From Planctomycetota bacterium (GTDB lineage Bacteria > Planctomycetota > Phycisphaerae > Phycisphaerales > SM1A02), in contig JAGWXC010000003.1 of the NCBI GenBank assembly GCA_018970045.1, positions 1 through 39,398 of the forward strand: DNA of 39,398 bases. Direction: 5' to 3'. The translations under genes were made by a program, and so were the position numbers. Position 1 is the first letter of the stretch. Every line of letters starts with the position of its first letter. The notes below the pieces were generated by a model, which worked only from the letters and a program-made list of their open reading frames with translations, was not told the origin of the DNA and did not search any database. Below are positions 3,500-31,770 of the stretch, in pieces.

Positions 3500-5701
3500 A
3501 TGCCGCTCCCCACGACCCTCGCTGCCTTGGTTCTCGGACAGTTGACGCCTTGGATCGGCCAACCGATCCCCAGTCCGATCGTTCGTGAGGATGTGGAACT
3601 CGCCCCCGCGCTTGCCCAAGCCGCTTCGGTCGTGCGCATCGACCTGCCGGCGTGGGCCGCCACGCGGGCCAACGAGCTGCAGCGCTGGCAGGGGGTGCCC
3701 ATCGCGCCCGGTCGCAACGTCGACCTCACCCTGACCCGAGTGAACCCCTTCACCGACGATGCCACGATCGTCGATGCGCAAGGCGAGAAGACCGAAGCGG
3801 TGATCGACGCTCCGACCGTCGATTGCTTCATGGGTTCGGTCGACGGTGAACCGGGTTCACGCGCGTACATCGCCATCAGCGAGTTCGGTCACTACGGCTA
3901 TGTGCTGGCGCAGGGCCGCACGTTCATCCTCTCGAGCGGTGACTTCGGCTCGAACCTGCCCACGCTCTTCTATGACCTCGGTGCACTGCCGCCTGGCCTC
4001 GTGCCCACACCGACCTTCACGTGCTCGGAACTCACGGTGCCCGGCGCCAAGCCGCCGGTGACCACGCCCGTCGATGGCTCGCTCGCGGGCTCGCCGTGCC
4101 GACAGGTGCGTATCGCCGTCGAGACCGATCACGAGTATCTGCAGTCGCTCTTCGGCGGCAGCACGACGGCGGCGACCGCCTACACCGCGGTCCTCATGGG
4201 CGCCGTGAACGAGCTCTACGTGACGGCGCTCAACACGCGCATCGGCGTGAACTACCTGCGCCTGTGGAGCACGCCGAACGATCCGTGGTCGGCGACCTCC
4301 ACGGGTGCCGAACTTGGCGTCTTCCGTGACTACTGGGCGGCGAACATGGGCTCGCAGCCCCGCGAACTCGCCCACTTCCTCTCCGGGCGCGGACTCGGCG
4401 GCGGCGTGGCCTGGCTCAGCGTCGTCTGCAATCCTGATTACGGCTTCGGGCTCAGCGCCAACCTCGGTGGGTCCTTCCCGTATCCGATCATCAACAACTC
4501 GGATGCGAACTGGGACATCATGGTCGTGGCACACGAGATCGGCCACAACTTCGGCACCACGCACACGCACAACTTCAGCCCGCCGGTCGATGGCTGCGGC
4601 TCGAATCCGCAGGATTGCGCCGTCGCCGACCAGGATCTGGGCACCATCATGAGCTACTGCCACATCTGCCCGGGTGGCCTCGCCAACGTGCGCATGGAGT
4701 TCCACCCGGTCTGCATCACGGCCATGCATGGGCACCTCGATGGCAACGGCTGCGCGGAGGAAGGCTCGTCGCGCCCGCCGCAGACGATGATCGATGCGAT
4801 CACGGCACTGCCAGGCCAGCCGGTGACCTTCGATCCGCTCGCCAACGACATCCCGATCAACTGCGAGGCGATTTCGCTGCGCTTCTATGCGCCGACCACC
4901 GCGCTCGGTGGTGTGGTTGAGCGCGTCGGCACGACCGGTTCGGTCCTGCGCTACACGGCACCAGCGGGCAGCGCCGGCAACGATGTGATTGCCTATGCGA
5001 TCGAAGAGGCTTCGGGCGCCACCGCGACCGGTGAGATCCGCGTGCAGGTGAAGCCGGTGCGAGCCGCCACGCCGGTGCAGGGCGACGTGCCCGCGCTCCT
5101 GGTCGACTACTACAACCTGAGCGCGGCGCCGCCATCGGTGCTGCCTGACTTCACGCAGCTCACGCCGTATCGAAGTTTCTCGTCGGCCACCGTGAACTAC
5201 GCGTCGACCGGCGGCAACTTCGCCGACAGCCAGCGCGCGGACACCGTCGGCGCGGTGTGGACCGGCTGGATCAACGTGCCGACCTCTGCGGACTGGACCC
5301 TCTTCATCGAGAGCGATGATGGTTCGCGGCTGTGGATTGGCGACCAGATGCTCATCGACAACGATGGCCTGCACGGGATGGTCGAGCGTTCAGGCACGAT
5401 CGCGCTGGCTGCGGGCAAGCACCCCGTGCGCCTGGCCTTCTTCGAGAATGGCGGCGGTGCCGGCATGATCCTGCGGTGGCAGGGGCCGGGCGTGGCGAAG
5501 GCCGTGATCCCGGCGTCGGCGCTCACGCGCGGCGGCACCGTGAACCGCAGCGACATCAACCTGGATGGTCGTGTCGATGGTGGTGACCTCGGCCTCCTGC
5601 TCGCTGCGTGGGGCACGGCCAATGCCGCCGCCGACATCGACCAGAGCGGCACCGTGGACGGCGCCGACCTCGGCACGTTGCTGAGCGCGTGGACTGGTTG
5701 A
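3500..5701 (+). CDS. Secreted reprolysin-like zinc metallopeptidase with PA14 domain and C-terminal dockerin-like tail
   Basis: HEIGHNFGTTH (HExxHxxGxxH) plus Met-turn GTIMSYC; PA14-like stretch LLVDYYNLSAAPPSVLPDFTQL...SADWTLFIESDDGSRLWIGDQMLIDNDGLH; tail DINLDGRVDGGDLGLLLAAWGTANAAADIDQSGTVDGADLGTLLSAWTG. Confidence 0.85.
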   Translation: MPLPTTLAALVLGQLTPWIGQPIPSPIVREDVELAPALAQAASVVRIDLPAWAATRANELQRWQGVPIAPGRNVDLTLTRVNPFTDDATIVDAQGEKTEAVIDAPTVDCFMGSVDGEPGSRAYIAISEFGHYGYVLAQGRTFILSSGDFGSNLPTLFYDLGALPPGLVPTPTFTCSELTVPGAKPPVTTPVDGSLAGSPCRQVRIAVETDHEYLQSLFGGSTTAATAYTAVLMGAVNELYVTALNTRIGVNYLRLWSTPNDPWSATSTGAELGVFRDYWAANMGSQPRELAHFLSGRGLGGGVAWLSVVCNPDYGFGLSANLGGSFPYPIINNSDANWDIMVVAHEIGHNFGTTHTHNFSPPVDGCGSNPQDCAVADQDLGTIMSYCHICPGGLANVRMEFHPVCITAMHGHLDGNGCAEEGSSRPPQTMIDAITALPGQPVTFDPLANDIPINCEAISLRFYAPTTALGGVVERVGTTGSVLRYTAPAGSAGNDVIAYAIEEASGATATGEIRVQVKPVRAATPVQGDVPALLVDYYNLSAAPPSVLPDFTQLTPYRSFSSATVNYASTGGNFADSQRADTVGAVWTGWINVPTSADWTLFIESDDGSRLWIGDQMLIDNDGLHGMVERSGTIALAAGKHPVRLAFFENGGGAGMILRWQGPGVAKAVIPASALTRGGTVNRSDINLDGRVDGGDLGLLLAAWGTANAAADIDQSGTVDGADLGTLLSAWTG

Positions 5702-22107: not shown

Positions 22108-22734
22108 TCAGCGTTCCCGCGCAGCCGCCGCGTCGAGCACAGCCACGACCTGCAATCGACCACCGAAGACGAGTTCCCAGCCCCTCGGATAGAGGCGCAT
22201 GGGGCTGATGAGCTTCAGGATTGGCGCGTGCACGCGCGAACAGAGCGCCCTCCACTCCTGCAGCGAGTGGTAGCGGTAGAGACAGGGCACGCCGTACGGC
22301 GCGTTGGCCGCCCAGTCCATGAGCGAGATCCGTGACTGCGCGAGCGGACCCTCGCGGGCATGGTCCTTCACCACGACCATGCGGCGTGCCACGCGCAGGC
22401 ATTCCCGCAGCAGCGCCTCGTCGTCGGGTTCATGGTGCAGGACATCCGCAACCGTCACGACGTCGAACGACGCATCATCGAAGGGGAGCCTGCCGCCGTC
22501 GTAGGCGACGACCGGAATGGGCTCGCCGCCGCGCGCCACGCGCTCGACGCCCATGGGTGAGACACCCTTGGGACAGCGTGGATCGCGGACGAGGGCATCG
22601 AGCAGCGTGCCGTTGCCGCACCCGACGTCGAGGATCCGGTCGCCCGGCTGCACGAGGTTGATGAGCACGTCCACCAGGCGCCGCAGGCGCTCCGCGTAGA
22701 TGCCGCGGTGCAGCGACTTCATGATCGATTTCAA
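22108..22734 (-). CDS. Class I SAM-dependent methyltransferase
   Basis: GDRILDVGCGNGTLLDAL...LPFDDASFDVVTVADVLHHEPDDEALLRECLRV. ORF start 22734 is TTG; ATG at 22722 is an alternative. Confidence 0.85.
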   Translation of the reverse strand: MKSIMKSLHRGIYAERLRRLVDVLINLVQPGDRILDVGCGNGTLLDALVRDPRCPKGVSPMGVERVARGGEPIPVVAYDGGRLPFDDASFDVVTVADVLHHEPDDEALLRECLRVARRMVVVKDHAREGPLAQSRISLMDWAANAPYGVPCLYRYHSLQEWRALCSRVHAPILKLISPMRLYPRGWELVFGGRLQVVAVLDAAAARER

Positions 22735-22752
22735 CGCCGTGCCTCCATGGCC

Positions 22753-22962
22753 TCAGTCCTCGATGATCTCGTGGAAGACGATCTGGCCTGTGGCCAGGCA
22801 GCGGCGCAGGTAGGGCTCGCAGGAGCCGCAGCCGGTGGTGCAGCCAAGTTCGTCGGCGAGCTGGTCGAGCGACAGCGAACGGTTCTTGGCCACCTCGAGT
22901 GCGTGCTCGAAGGTCACGTCGTGGCACACGCAGCGATCGATGCGCAGTTGTTGCTCAGGCAT
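22753..22962 (-). CDS. BFD-like (2Fe-2S)-binding small protein
   Basis: MPEQQLRIDRCVCHDVTFEHALEVAKNRSLSLDQLADELGCTTGCGSCEPYLRRCL; CxC...C..C arrangement of bacterioferritin-associated ferredoxin family. Confidence 0.85.
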   Translation of the reverse strand: MPEQQLRIDRCVCHDVTFEHALEVAKNRSLSLDQLADELGCTTGCGSCEPYLRRCLATGQIVFHEIIED

Positions 22963-22968
22963 GGGGGC

Positions 22969-23751
22969 TCACCGGGGATCGTATGCGGCGTCATCCTCAG
23001 AAAGGAAGCCGTTGTCGGGATGGCCCATCACGTCGGCAAGGGCCTGCGGCGTCGAGAGCGCACCGGCGCAACTCGTGCAGGCACCGTGCACGGAGCCATC
23101 GAGCCGGGCCACGTGCGAACAGCCGAGATGTCGGAACGCCTGCGCTCCGGCACAGATCATCAGCAGGTCGCCCTCGATGGTGTTCATGGGTGCTCGCATG
23201 TACTTGTTGGTGCCGCCCGCCCAGCCGGCGTCGCCGAGGATGGCGGCCTGCGTGTTGCGGCACTGCGCGCTTGCCAGGCCCAGGCGAACGTTGGACCATC
23301 CATCGAGGATCGCGCCGCCCGGGCCGACCTGCGGAAAGCGGCCCTCGGCGCCGATGAAGGTCGTGTTGTAGTTGTAGCCCGTGAAGGGATCGCCGGCGGG
23401 ATCGTTGCCGGTCCAGCTCGGGCACTGCTGCACGCGGCTCGGCGCATCAAGGTGGCGCGTGATCGAACCGGGCAGCGCCGCACGACCCGGCGCCGTGTCG
23501 AGGTCCCACGAGAGCGTGCGGATGCCGGCGCCGGACGTGGGTGCGAACATGAGCACCGCAGGGGCGAAGCGCTCCTTGTTGAGCGTGACGTACGCCTGCG
23601 ATGCACTCGCGAGTTGACGGAGATTCGATTGGCACTCCGCGCTGCGGCCACCTTCGGCAAGGGTCGACAACGCGGGCAGCACGAGCCCGATCAGGATCAC
23701 CACGATGCCGATCACCACGAGGACCTCGATGAGCGTGAAGGCACGCCTCAT
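22969..23751 (-). CDS. Type II secretion/pilin-like protein with prepilin N-terminal cleavage/methylation motif
   Basis: MRRAFTLIEVLVVIGIVVILIGLVLPAL; planctomycete-style pseudopilin. ATGA overlap with the upstream gene. Confidence 0.88.
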   Translation of the reverse strand: MRRAFTLIEVLVVIGIVVILIGLVLPALSTLAEGGRSAECQSNLRQLASASQAYVTLNKERFAPAVLMFAPTSGAGIRTLSWDLDTAPGRAALPGSITRHLDAPSRVQQCPSWTGNDPAGDPFTGYNYNTTFIGAEGRFPQVGPGGAILDGWSNVRLGLASAQCRNTQAAILGDAGWAGGTNKYMRAPMNTIEGDLLMICAGAQAFRHLGCSHVARLDGSVHGACTSCAGALSTPQALADVMGHPDNGFLSEDDAAYDPR

Positions 23752-24641
23752 GACCAGGCCGCCAGCAGCGCGCCGAGGTCGCCGCCGTCGACGCTGCCGC
23801 TTCCATCGAGGTCCGCCCCCGGCTCGGTCGTGCCGAACGCACTGAGCAGGATCCCCAGGTCGGCGCCATCGATCGAGCCGTTGCCATCGAGGTCACCCGG
23901 CACGGCCAGGGGAGCCACGTCGCTGAAGCCATCGATCTCGGCGCTTTGCATCGCACCAGACGGAACGCGCACGCGCACGAAGCGGATCGACGACAGGCCG
24001 AGCGGAGCAAGATCGATGCCCGCGCCGCCGCCGGAGCCGTTGTACATCGCGCGCACCGCCGACCACTCCTGGCCGATCATCGACGCGACCGTGATCGACG
24101 GATCGATCGGCCGCGTGAAGTCCGTGGGTTCGAGCCCGGGCACCGTGGCGTACGGCGATGCATCGAGCCAGCCGCACGTTGGCGCGAAGCCGTCGGCGTC
24201 CGTTCCCGGAACGACCACCCAGGTCAGGCCGTCGTGGCTCACCGAGATCTGCCCACCTTCGGCGAAGAGGCCTGATGGCGTCCCCATCGGATACGCCGCG
24301 TCGCCGAAGAAGGCGTTGCCGAAGACGATGAGGTCCACGCCGAAGGGGTTGCGTGGGTCGTCGGTCACGTCGTGGTCGAACGACACCACGAGTTCGCCAC
24401 CTGCGCCGATCGAGACCAGCTCGCTCGTCATGAAGGCAGGCTGAAACGGCGTGACGGCCTGTGGGAAGAACGGACCGCCCGTGAAGCGCGTGGGTTCGCC
24501 GAGGGCGGATGCAGCGATGGTGAAGCCGCCGGCGGGACTCGAGCCGGGCGAATACGTGATGACGCTCGAGGCGTAGGGTGATTGCGCACGCGCCAAGGTG
24601 GGCAGGGCGGCAAGCAGGACAACGATGACCAAACGATGCAT
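23748..24641 (-). CDS. Secreted protein with C-terminal dockerin-like tail, downstream of a cobalamin riboswitch
   Basis: Signal peptide MHRLVIVVLLAALPTLARAQ; body YASSVITYSPGSSPAGGFTIAASALGEPTRFTGG...NPFGVDLIVFGNAFFGD; tail GDLDGNGSIDGADLGILLSAFGTTEPGADLDGSGSVDGGDLGALLAAWS. Start trimmed to ATG 24641. Confidence 0.85.
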   Translation of the reverse strand: MHRLVIVVLLAALPTLARAQSPYASSVITYSPGSSPAGGFTIAASALGEPTRFTGGPFFPQAVTPFQPAFMTSELVSIGAGGELVVSFDHDVTDDPRNPFGVDLIVFGNAFFGDAAYPMGTPSGLFAEGGQISVSHDGLTWVVVPGTDADGFAPTCGWLDASPYATVPGLEPTDFTRPIDPSITVASMIGQEWSAVRAMYNGSGGGAGIDLAPLGLSSIRFVRVRVPSGAMQSAEIDGFSDVAPLAVPGDLDGNGSIDGADLGILLSAFGTTEPGADLDGSGSVDGGDLGALLAAWS

Positions 24642-24704
24642 GGAAACCTCCGCGGACTCGCGCCCTGGCCCCGGGATCGCGGGGGCACGCAGCGCTGGGT
24701 GTCG

Positions 24705-24900
24705 GCAGGTCTTCCGGCTTCGGGTCTTGGCTCGACCTTCCCGAGCCGCGGAGCCCAGTGGTCTTCGTTGAGCCAAGGTGCTGGCGTGTTGGGCCAGCCA
24801 CCCGTTACGGCGGCGCGTCCGCGGTGGTGTTGCACCACGCTTCCCTCGCAGCGCACGGCGTGCTGCGATTGGCCGGACATCCGGCCAACGACCGACGTCC
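24705..24900 (-). promoter_or_regulatory. Cobalamin (B12) riboswitch
   Basis: Reverse complement contains GGGAAGCGTGGTGCAACACCACCGCGGACGCGCCGCCGTAACGGG ... CCACTGGG...CGGGAAGG ... CCAAGACCCGAAGCCGGAAGACCTGCCGAC, the conserved blocks of the cobalamin riboswitch family in order; ends about 65 nt before the ATG at 24641. Confidence 0.92.
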
Positions 24901-25040
24901 GAAGGTTACCGGGAACTCCGCGAGGCGTTTCTGCGAACGGTCGGGTGGGGCTTCGTTGCACTGCATCGCGATGCCCGATACCCTCCCCAAACTCGCCACG
25001 GCGCCTGCCGAGGCCACCCCACGACCACGGAGTCCGCGAC

Positions 25041-30330: not shown

Positions 30331-31770
30331 TCAGGAACGAGGCGCAGCCAGCACCGAGCGGCGCACGCGGGCCACCAGTTCATCCGCACCGGATGATCCA
30401 TCGGCGGTCTCGATCGCGGCACGCTCCTCGACGAGCTTCTGCACGCGGCTGGCCGCTGCGTGAATCGTGCTGTGCGTGCTGCGGCCCATCGCCTTGGCGA
30501 TCTCGGGGTAGCTGCGGGTGGTGAACTCCCGGGCAAGCAGGGCGATCACGCCGCGCGCCAGCACCGCGCGTCGGTGGCGGCTTGCGCCCAGGCACTCGGA
30601 TCGCTCGACCCCGAGCGCCTCGCAGGTGGCGTCGATGATCGTGGGGATCCGCACGTTGGTCCTGCGCTCCCGTGCGGCGTCGGCGTCGAGCACTTGGGTG
30701 ACCGAGGACTCGTTGATCGCCTCGCCCTGCAGGCGGCGGGTATCGAGGACCGAGACCGCCGCGAGCTTGGCCACGGCGCCTTCGATCTCGCGCACGCTGC
30801 CCACGCATCGGCTGGCCACGCAGTCGATCGCCGAATCGGTGAGCCGCAGCCCCCGGCGCTGGGCGAACCGACGGACGAGCGCGTTGCGCAGGTCGCGGTC
30901 GGGGGCATCGACCTTGGCCACGATGCCCGCGAGCAGTCGGCTCACGAGTGCCTTCGAGAGCCGAGCGATCTCGCGAGGATGCTCGTCGCTCACGATCGCC
31001 ACCTTCGCGCCCATCAGCCCGACGGCATCGATCGTGTGCAGGAACTCGGCCTGCGTGGCGGTCTTGTCGGCGAGGAAGTGCACGTCGTCGATCGCGAGGA
31101 GGTCGCACTCGCGCACGCGCTGGCGGAAGGCCGAGACGGTGTTGGCGCGCAGCGCCGCGAGGAAGCCGTTGGTGAACTGTTCGCCGGTCAGGTATCGCAC
31201 CCGCGTCGAGCCGGTCGACTGGCGGGCCGAGCAGAGCGCATGCAGGAGGTGGGTCTTGCCGACGCCGCACGGGCCGTGGAGCACGAGCAGGTTCACGCCC
31301 GGCAGCGTGCCGGCCGCGAACTGCCGGGCGCTCTCGAGGGCGATCCGGTTGCTAGGCGCCGCGACGAAGTCATCGAAGGTGCGCCACTCGCTGCCGGGAC
31401 GGGTACGCCGCTCGCGCTCCGGGAGCGCCGATTCGATCGCGCGTTCCGGATCGCCACGCCGCGCACGCGCGCTCGAGGGCGTGGCCTGCTGCGGCGCGGC
31501 ACGGATCGTGACCTTGGCGCCAGCGCCACTGCGCTCGCGCATCACCGACTCGAGCACGCCCCGGTAGTGACGCTCGATCCAGTCGCTGGCGAAGGTGGTG
31601 CGCACCGCGACGTCGAGCGAACCGCCTTCGACGGCAAGCTCCGACTGGCTCTCGAACCACATCCGGAAGGGAACGTCGCCGATGCGGTTGCGGATGGCTT
31701 CGCCAAGCGCCTCGCGCTCGATGGAGGAGCCGCGCGCGTCGAAGGAGCAGGAGGTCTGGGTGTCGTTCAA
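30331..31770 (-). CDS. dnaA: Chromosomal replication initiator protein DnaA
   Basis: Domain I RMWFESQSELAVEGGSLDVAVRTTFASDWIERHYRGVL; Walker A LHGPCGVGKTHLLHAL; Walker B DLLAIDDVHFLADKTATQAEFLHTID; domain IV SYPEIAKAMGRSTHSTIHAA. TTG start at 31770 is a best guess. Confidence 0.92.
   Translation of the reverse strand: MNDTQTSCSFDARGSSIEREALGEAIRNRIGDVPFRMWFESQSELAVEGGSLDVAVRTTFASDWIERHYRGVLESVMRERSGAGAKVTIRAAPQQATPSSARARRGDPERAIESALPERERRTRPGSEWRTFDDFVAAPSNRIALESARQFAAGTLPGVNLLVLHGPCGVGKTHLLHALCSARQSTGSTRVRYLTGEQFTNGFLAALRANTVSAFRQRVRECDLLAIDDVHFLADKTATQAEFLHTIDAVGLMGAKVAIVSDEHPREIARLSKALVSRLLAGIVAKVDAPDRDLRNALVRRFAQRRGLRLTDSAIDCVASRCVGSVREIEGAVAKLAAVSVLDTRRLQGEAINESSVTQVLDADAARERRTNVRIPTIIDATCEALGVERSECLGASRHRRAVLARGVIALLAREFTTRSYPEIAKAMGRSTHSTIHAAASRVQKLVEERAAIETADGSSGADELVARVRRSVLAAPRS

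Follow-up and report, generated by a model that had tools for sequence, protein, structure and literature searches.

A riboswitch-led operon that joins a BtuH-like protein to a dedicated pseudopilin is a probable cobamide-capture module in Phycisphaerales

The closest described relatives of the locus treated here come from Bacteroides thetaiotaomicron, where BtuH1, BtuH2 and the H-domain of BtuG1/BtuGH are exported and their genes are led by cobalamin riboswitches. DUF4465/BtuJ (IPR027828), a beta-jellyroll, is another riboswitch-linked exported binder of vitamin B12, and the DUF4465 protein of the planctomycete Mucisphaera binds B12 (PMC13398666). BtuBG with ExbBD forms a TonB-dependent uptake system that is regulated in the same manner and works with an inner-membrane BtuFCD-like transporter, and Planctomycetota encode prepilin-like proteins of the H-X9-DG/DUF1559 kind. 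In this study we analysed a 39,398-nucleotide (nt) stretch of planctomycete DNA, contig JAGWXC010000003.1 (hereafter the window; contig 83 of an assembly of 2.49 Mb in 332 contigs), in which a cobalamin riboswitch leads into genes for a secreted protein (P0001), a prepilin-like protein (P0002) and a BFD-like iron-sulfur protein (P0003). We believe, with a probability of roughly 75%, that this operon is a B12-repressed module for scavenging or capturing cobamides in a probably B12-auxotrophic planctomycete of the order Phycisphaerales. The computed features behind this reading are the riboswitch, BtuH homology, order-wide linkage, BtuFCD-like genes, B12-dependent enzymes and the lack of CbiC. 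The parts of the operon are as follows:

24687..24911, minus strand: cobalamin riboswitch aptamer, RF00174 (cmscan, full model 1-189)
24642..24686, minus strand: linker and putative expression platform, 45 nt (sequence, complementarity scan, conservation)
23748..24641, minus strand: P0001, secreted BtuH-like protein of 297 amino acids (aa), predicted cobamide-binding surface protein
23916..24584, minus strand: BtuH-homologous domain, P0001 residues 20-242 (hmmsearch to 8blw_B and 7biz_A)
23751..23906, minus strand: dockerin-like (EF-hand type) C-terminal tail, P0001 residues 246-297 (sub-cut-off profiles, Foldseek, recurrence)
22969..23751, minus strand: P0002, dedicated H-X9-DG-type prepilin/pseudopilin, 260 aa (N_methyl, linkage, conserved subfamily)
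22753..22962, minus strand: P0003, BFD-like [2Fe-2S] protein, 69 aa (PF04324; 6 nt after the P0002 gene)

The P0001 reading frame (24641-23748, 298 codons including the stop) starts with a signal-peptide-like N-terminus, MHRLVIVVLLAALPTLARAQS, and its product has no Pfam domain above cut-off. We built a family profile from 19 diverse members and a second version trimmed of the tail. Across the domain, the untrimmed profile matched one PDB chain, 8blw_B (BtuG1 of B. thetaiotaomicron), at residues 390-659 (E 1.2e-12), and its other PDB matches were EF-hand matches to the tail. These residues are the part described as the roughly 250-residue BtuH-homologous extension of BtuG1 (PMC10404256). With the trimmed profile, 8blw_B was matched at E 1.5e-26 and the BtuH2-B12 complex 7biz_A at E 1.1e-20, followed by a single weak match (E 0.34). 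Foldseek also placed 8blw_B first among PDB structures for the P0001 AlphaFold model (predicted local distance difference test score, pLDDT, 93), with E 1.2e-6 and as the sole match below E 0.001. Because the global template modelling score (TM-score) of this pair is low, 0.33, we give more weight to the sequence profile.

BtuH2 contacts B12 through Asn399, Phe401, Tyr510, Gln333, Trp511, His476 and Trp577 (PMC8941943). In the profile alignment, Asn399 corresponds to P0001 Asn109, which is invariant (58/58 and 19/19 sequences), Phe401 to Phe111, kept in 44/58, and Tyr510 to Trp158, at a position that is aromatic in 58/58. Given the profile matches and the way the contact residues map, P0001 is a distant BtuH homologue with a changed pocket, and it probably binds B12. 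The earlier note on this DNA had proposed an undescribed system; as a predicted binder, P0001 belongs to a family that is already known, BtuH, and so is not of a new kind. We also considered P0001 as a DUF4465 protein and rejected this, as PF14717 gave no match at E<=1 and there are no DUF4465 proteins in the window's genome; in contrast to BtuJ, P0001 matches the BtuH domain.

The RF00174 match, at 54.3 bits, clears the gathering score of 31.5 (E 6e-11 for the window), is the sole riboswitch in the window and lies 45 nt upstream of the P0001 gene. The earlier note had placed a cobalamin riboswitch near 24705-24900, and the covariance model hits 24911-24687 on the minus strand, above the gathering score. 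The reading frame positions, the ATGA overlap and the short intergenic gaps were likewise as described there, and the usual B12 targets (btuB, btuFCD, cob/cbi, metE, nrd), which that note had not seen near the riboswitch, were not recognised among the window genes examined.

To place the locus in context, we searched 101 genomes of the order Phycisphaerales for P0001 homologues and, separately, for RF00174. The homologues counted are those with P0001 matches extending beyond the tail (n=65). Of these 65, 56 have a same-strand cobalamin riboswitch no more than 1 kb upstream, at a median distance of 176 nt, so the association with B12 riboswitches that the earlier note proposed to look for is there. 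The aptamer is retained in most of the window's genus, and wherever it is present in the genus the gap to the P0001 gene is 45 nt throughout. RF00174 gave 107 matches, 99 of them above the gathering score, in 89 of the 101 genomes. Of these riboswitches, 51 are not directly upstream of a P0001 homologue: 48 lead into related families (BtuH-like, a propeller-like secreted protein, the PEP-CTERM family C15, pilin) and 3 directly into BtuB-type receptors. In all, 104/107 lead into the operon module or into genes for related secreted or prepilin proteins. The tally of 48 in 51 is descriptive only, because genes next to riboswitches went into the family profiles used for it; the count of 56/65 does not depend on these profiles. 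Across families with differing surroundings, the order of the operon is riboswitch, an optional propeller-like protein, BtuH-like protein, pilin and BFD. The loci of relatives were read by gene calling made in this analysis, and the named relatives are mostly Phycisphaerales/Phycisphaerae and other Planctomycetota metagenome-assembled genomes (MAGs) from lakes, ponds and seas.

DUF4465 occurs in 4 of the 101 genomes, within riboswitch-led loci and once inside the first gene itself, so these four relatives have a BtuJ-type protein in the same kind of locus. With the BtuH-domain homology and the order-wide riboswitch link, this strongly supports the earlier proposal that P0001 is a secreted, predicted corrinoid-binding or scavenging surface factor. 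In two genomes (G085 and G094), one riboswitch leads into the pilin and a second into BtuB; in G085, ExbB/D-like genes come after BtuB. In G090, BtuC-like, BtuD-like and flavodoxin-like genes precede the operon unit. These three locus layouts tie the pilin to B12 transport.

At several loci (L104, L106-L110, L113, L119, L120), we observed first genes that are tandem or fused, a propeller-like secreted protein with a BtuH-like one, including two-domain forms of 718 and 733 aa, one with DUF4465. We rejected the first genes of the tandem loci as BtuG, as their sole beta-propeller match is weak and is to a surface-layer protein instead of BtuG. The C15 family has no Pfam domain above cut-off and no PDB relative; in many relatives its genes are led by riboswitches. 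In the window's own genome, another cobalamin riboswitch, sub-threshold at 27 bits (L103, contig 149, 791-665, minus strand), leads a gene at 617-105 (minus strand) for a PEP-CTERM-like protein of this family.

The P0002 gene overlaps the P0001 gene by 4 nt (ATGA), and its product carries the prepilin motif RAFTLIEVL and the H-X9-DG motif H-LGCSHVARL-DG (HLGCSHVARLDG). N_methyl scores 21.2 bits, at its cut-off of 21.2, and TIGR02532 scores 21.2 against 16.3, while DUF1559 is sub-threshold; the N-terminal profile matches solved pilins. The P0002 model has an overall pLDDT of 87, with the C-terminal part well modelled, and found no fold match to any solved structure in the PDB. The pilins of the operon form a subfamily with 51% mean column identity over 43 sequences and the motifs GYNYNT..IGAEGR, ANKFMRAP and NGFLSDDD. 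Operon orthologues of P0002 in the window's family mostly match at E 1e-40 to 1e-177, against about 1e-15 for the best paralogue in its own genome, where 14 other prepilin-like hits are separated from it. Judged from its sequence, P0002 thus belongs to a distinct, dedicated pilin subfamily, which differs from other H-X9-DG prepilins in its link to cobalamin riboswitches and binders. The pilin gene immediately follows the BtuH-like gene in 73 of the 75 named loci with enough sequence, often with an overlap of 1 or 4 nt. This linkage of a predicted binder to a pseudopilin is far beyond chance, and the pseudopilin may act in export or assembly, as the earlier note suggested.

The window's genome encodes B12-dependent enzymes, seen as the C-terminal half of MetH and a methylmalonyl-CoA mutase small domain with MeaB, and has a BtuF-BtuC-BtuD-like set on another contig than the operon. 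A FecCD (BtuC-type) permease is present in 96/101 genomes. CbiC, a step of corrin-ring synthesis, was found in 0/101 genomes, and the control search was positive in 7/14 reference genomes. Because CbiC is absent from all 101, the order looks B12-auxotrophic and would probably depend on external cobamides. Plug or barrel domains of TonB-dependent receptors occur in 42/101 genomes when both are counted together. The other 59 have neither, among them 41 of the 61 genomes in the family to which the window belongs and, it appears, every one of the 12 in a second family. The window's genome also encodes 3 secretins and one PilT-family protein.

We propose that the operon works as follows. The riboswitch would leave the mRNA on at low intracellular cobalamin and turn it off at high levels. 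The first gene would then yield an exported BtuH-type protein, a predicted beta-sandwich that binds B12 at the nucleotide loop and the corrin ring and is held on the surface by the dockerin-like tail. The co-translated pseudopilin could be a dedicated subunit of a secretin-linked type II secretion or type IV pilus machine; its most likely role is to export the binder or present it at the surface. Captured B12 would pass to the periplasm and through the unlinked BtuFCD-like transporter to the cytoplasm, where the BFD protein may provide the electrons that reduce cob(III)alamin once it has entered. In this scheme we infer the direction of regulation, B12 binding, surface location and the roles of the pilin and BFD protein.

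Several points weigh against a cobamide-capture module of this kind. Gln333 of BtuH2 is present in a subset of distant members only and is not evidently conserved in P0001, nor is conservation evident there for Trp511, His476 and Trp577. Unlike BtuH, P0001 has no lipobox and no N-terminal PKD/Ig-like domains and ends in a dockerin-like or, in some relatives, PEP-CTERM tail, and its locus has no btuB. Besides these points, the locus differs from those of BtuH in coupling a pseudopilin and BFD to the binder, and in belonging to Planctomycetota and not Bacteroidota. P0001 counts as BtuH through homology; neither its architecture nor a link to btuB places it there. The auxotrophy argument uses one synthesis gene, CbiC, and the assemblies compared are largely MAGs. 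In a genome of the same genus (G006, L158:5700-6011), the aptamer is lost and the approximately 60-nt expression platform and Shine-Dalgarno region are nearly identical, a natural case of riboswitch loss. Finally, the window's genome contains pieces of one TonB-dependent receptor, split over contigs, about 1,000 aa long by its same-genus orthologues and without a riboswitch; because of this receptor, the genome cannot be called receptor-free.

That receptor bears on how cobamides might cross the outer membrane. One possibility, which we regard as tentative, is that the binder serves an unlinked outer-membrane receptor (the approximately 1,000-aa TonB-dependent protein or a porin) as BtuH does for BtuBG, with the pilin as an export factor only. 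The plug and barrel pieces in the window's genome agree with it, and BtuH of Bacteroides likewise shows no stable BtuB binding (PMC8941943). However, no riboswitch was found to lead this receptor in the window's genome, and in most relatives sharing the operon no such receptor is present. Compared with BtuBG and ExbBD systems, the P0001 locus has no BtuB, and 59 of the 101 relatives show no TonB-dependent receptor domain.

The same 59 genomes, most of which keep riboswitch, binder and pilin, suggest another route, in which Phycisphaerales would take up B12 without a TonB-dependent receptor. The pseudopilin and BtuH-like protein would form a retracting, B12-fishing filament that pulls the vitamin through a secretin and moves it across the outer membrane in place of BtuB. 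The nearly universal BtuC-type permease, the secretins and PilT-type ATPase of the window's genome, a pilin as conserved as the binder, and riboswitch-led pilins without a recognised binder in G085, G094 and G100 are all consistent with such a filament. We nevertheless consider it doubtful, and somewhat less likely than an unlinked receptor, as no solved fold matches the pilin model, genomes with BtuB (G085, G094) have riboswitch-led pilins as well, and the window's genus has the large receptor described above.

It is very improbable that the riboswitch controls a surface protein of non-corrinoid function, for example in adhesion or carbohydrate binding, that is switched by B12 status. The weaker fold matches of the P0001 model, to carbohydrate-binding and discoidin-type beta-sandwiches, and the partly differing BtuH2 contacts would suit such a protein, but apart from the match at E 0.34 the trimmed profile finds solely two B12-binding proteins, the Asn399 equivalent never varies and DUF4465 sits in the same kind of loci. 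It is hardly credible that the pilin and BFD genes are neighbours by chance, held together by synteny. In the window's family, synteny does extend to the surrounding genes (mutL and others), but the pair is also kept in other families, where the surroundings differ and stop/start overlaps occur, and the pilin stands far apart from its paralogues.

We return to the operon as a cobamide-capture module. The module would widen BtuH-type capture, which the papers we found have so far described from Bacteroidetes, to the Planctomycetota, in an order that is common in lakes and seas. It gives a testable function to one riboswitch-linked pseudopilin subfamily in a phylum with dozens of prepilin-like genes per genome, and offers an annotation for genes without a Pfam domain. 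It also raises the question of how B12 passes the outer membrane in diderm bacteria that are apparently B12-auxotrophic and show no recognisable BtuB. In the open-access literature we found no description of cobalamin riboswitches or BtuH in Planctomycetota or of a pseudopilin in a B12 locus, which is weak evidence of novelty.

The tail of P0001 scores below the cut-offs of Pfam Dockerin_1 (12.8 vs 22.9) and NCBIfam dockerin_GC (20.3 vs 29), and the P0001 model matches the solved dockerin 2y3n (Foldseek, TM-score 0.82 normalised by target). The same tail is found on many other proteins of the window's genome, and some relatives carry PEP-CTERM in its place. For these reasons we rejected the tail as a B12-specific display device. 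The resemblance to a dockerin noted earlier stands, whereas the tail itself appears to be a general anchor of the lineage. One of its other carriers lies within the window at 3500-5701 (plus strand), an M12-type metallopeptidase with a PA14 domain.

Within the 45-nt linker there is a Shine-Dalgarno sequence, GGAGG, at 24651-24647. The complementarity scan found that CCGCGGAG (24655-24648), which overlaps this Shine-Dalgarno sequence of the P0001 gene, perfectly complements the aptamer L5 segment CTCCGCGG (24753-24746) over 8 nt. Within the genus, such pairing would suit translational repression. As a general rule we rejected it: over all loci the score was 14.56, against a mean of 13.76 and a maximum of 14.34 in re-paired controls (n=50), and the complementarity is convincing only within the genus and at one other locus. 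In single-strand folding of the leader, the minimum free energy was not clearly below that of shuffles (z -1.2). At many of the loci L155-L234, we noted a hairpin with the loop CGCGA about 10-20 nt before the start codon, whose stems vary strongly yet stay complementary. It occurs in 31/75 loci, compared with 8% of random stretches, and is probably the expression platform there.

P0003 matches Fer2_BFD (PF04324) at 27.5 bits against a cut-off of 26, and a BFD gene follows the pilin in 35/68 named loci. The run of genes in the window ends with:

22108..22734, minus strand: P0004, class I methyltransferase (Pfam Methyltransf_11)

Its start is either TTG at 22734, leaving an 18-nt gap, or ATG at 22722, leaving 30 nt. 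The earlier note had counted the methyltransferase in the unit, but its cluster has 2 members, both in the window's genus, so we do not retain it as part of the operon. MoaD/MoeA-like, alpha/beta hydrolase and pyrroloquinoline quinone (PQQ)-propeller neighbours were also rejected as core members, their conservation among relatives being too low. In part of the family (L075, L079, L088, L091 and others), MoeA-like or MoaD-like genes come directly after the pilin, often overlapping it. In one family (L102, L115, L121, L140, L141), a thioredoxin-reductase-like gene lies shortly downstream of the riboswitch-led genes. At L145 (G090, contig 41, 13-1852), the BtuC-like and BtuD-like genes are followed by the flavodoxin-like gene directly before the riboswitch. 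This gene and the BFD genes elsewhere hint at a redox step for corrinoids. Elsewhere in the window, dnaA is located at 30331-31770 (minus strand).

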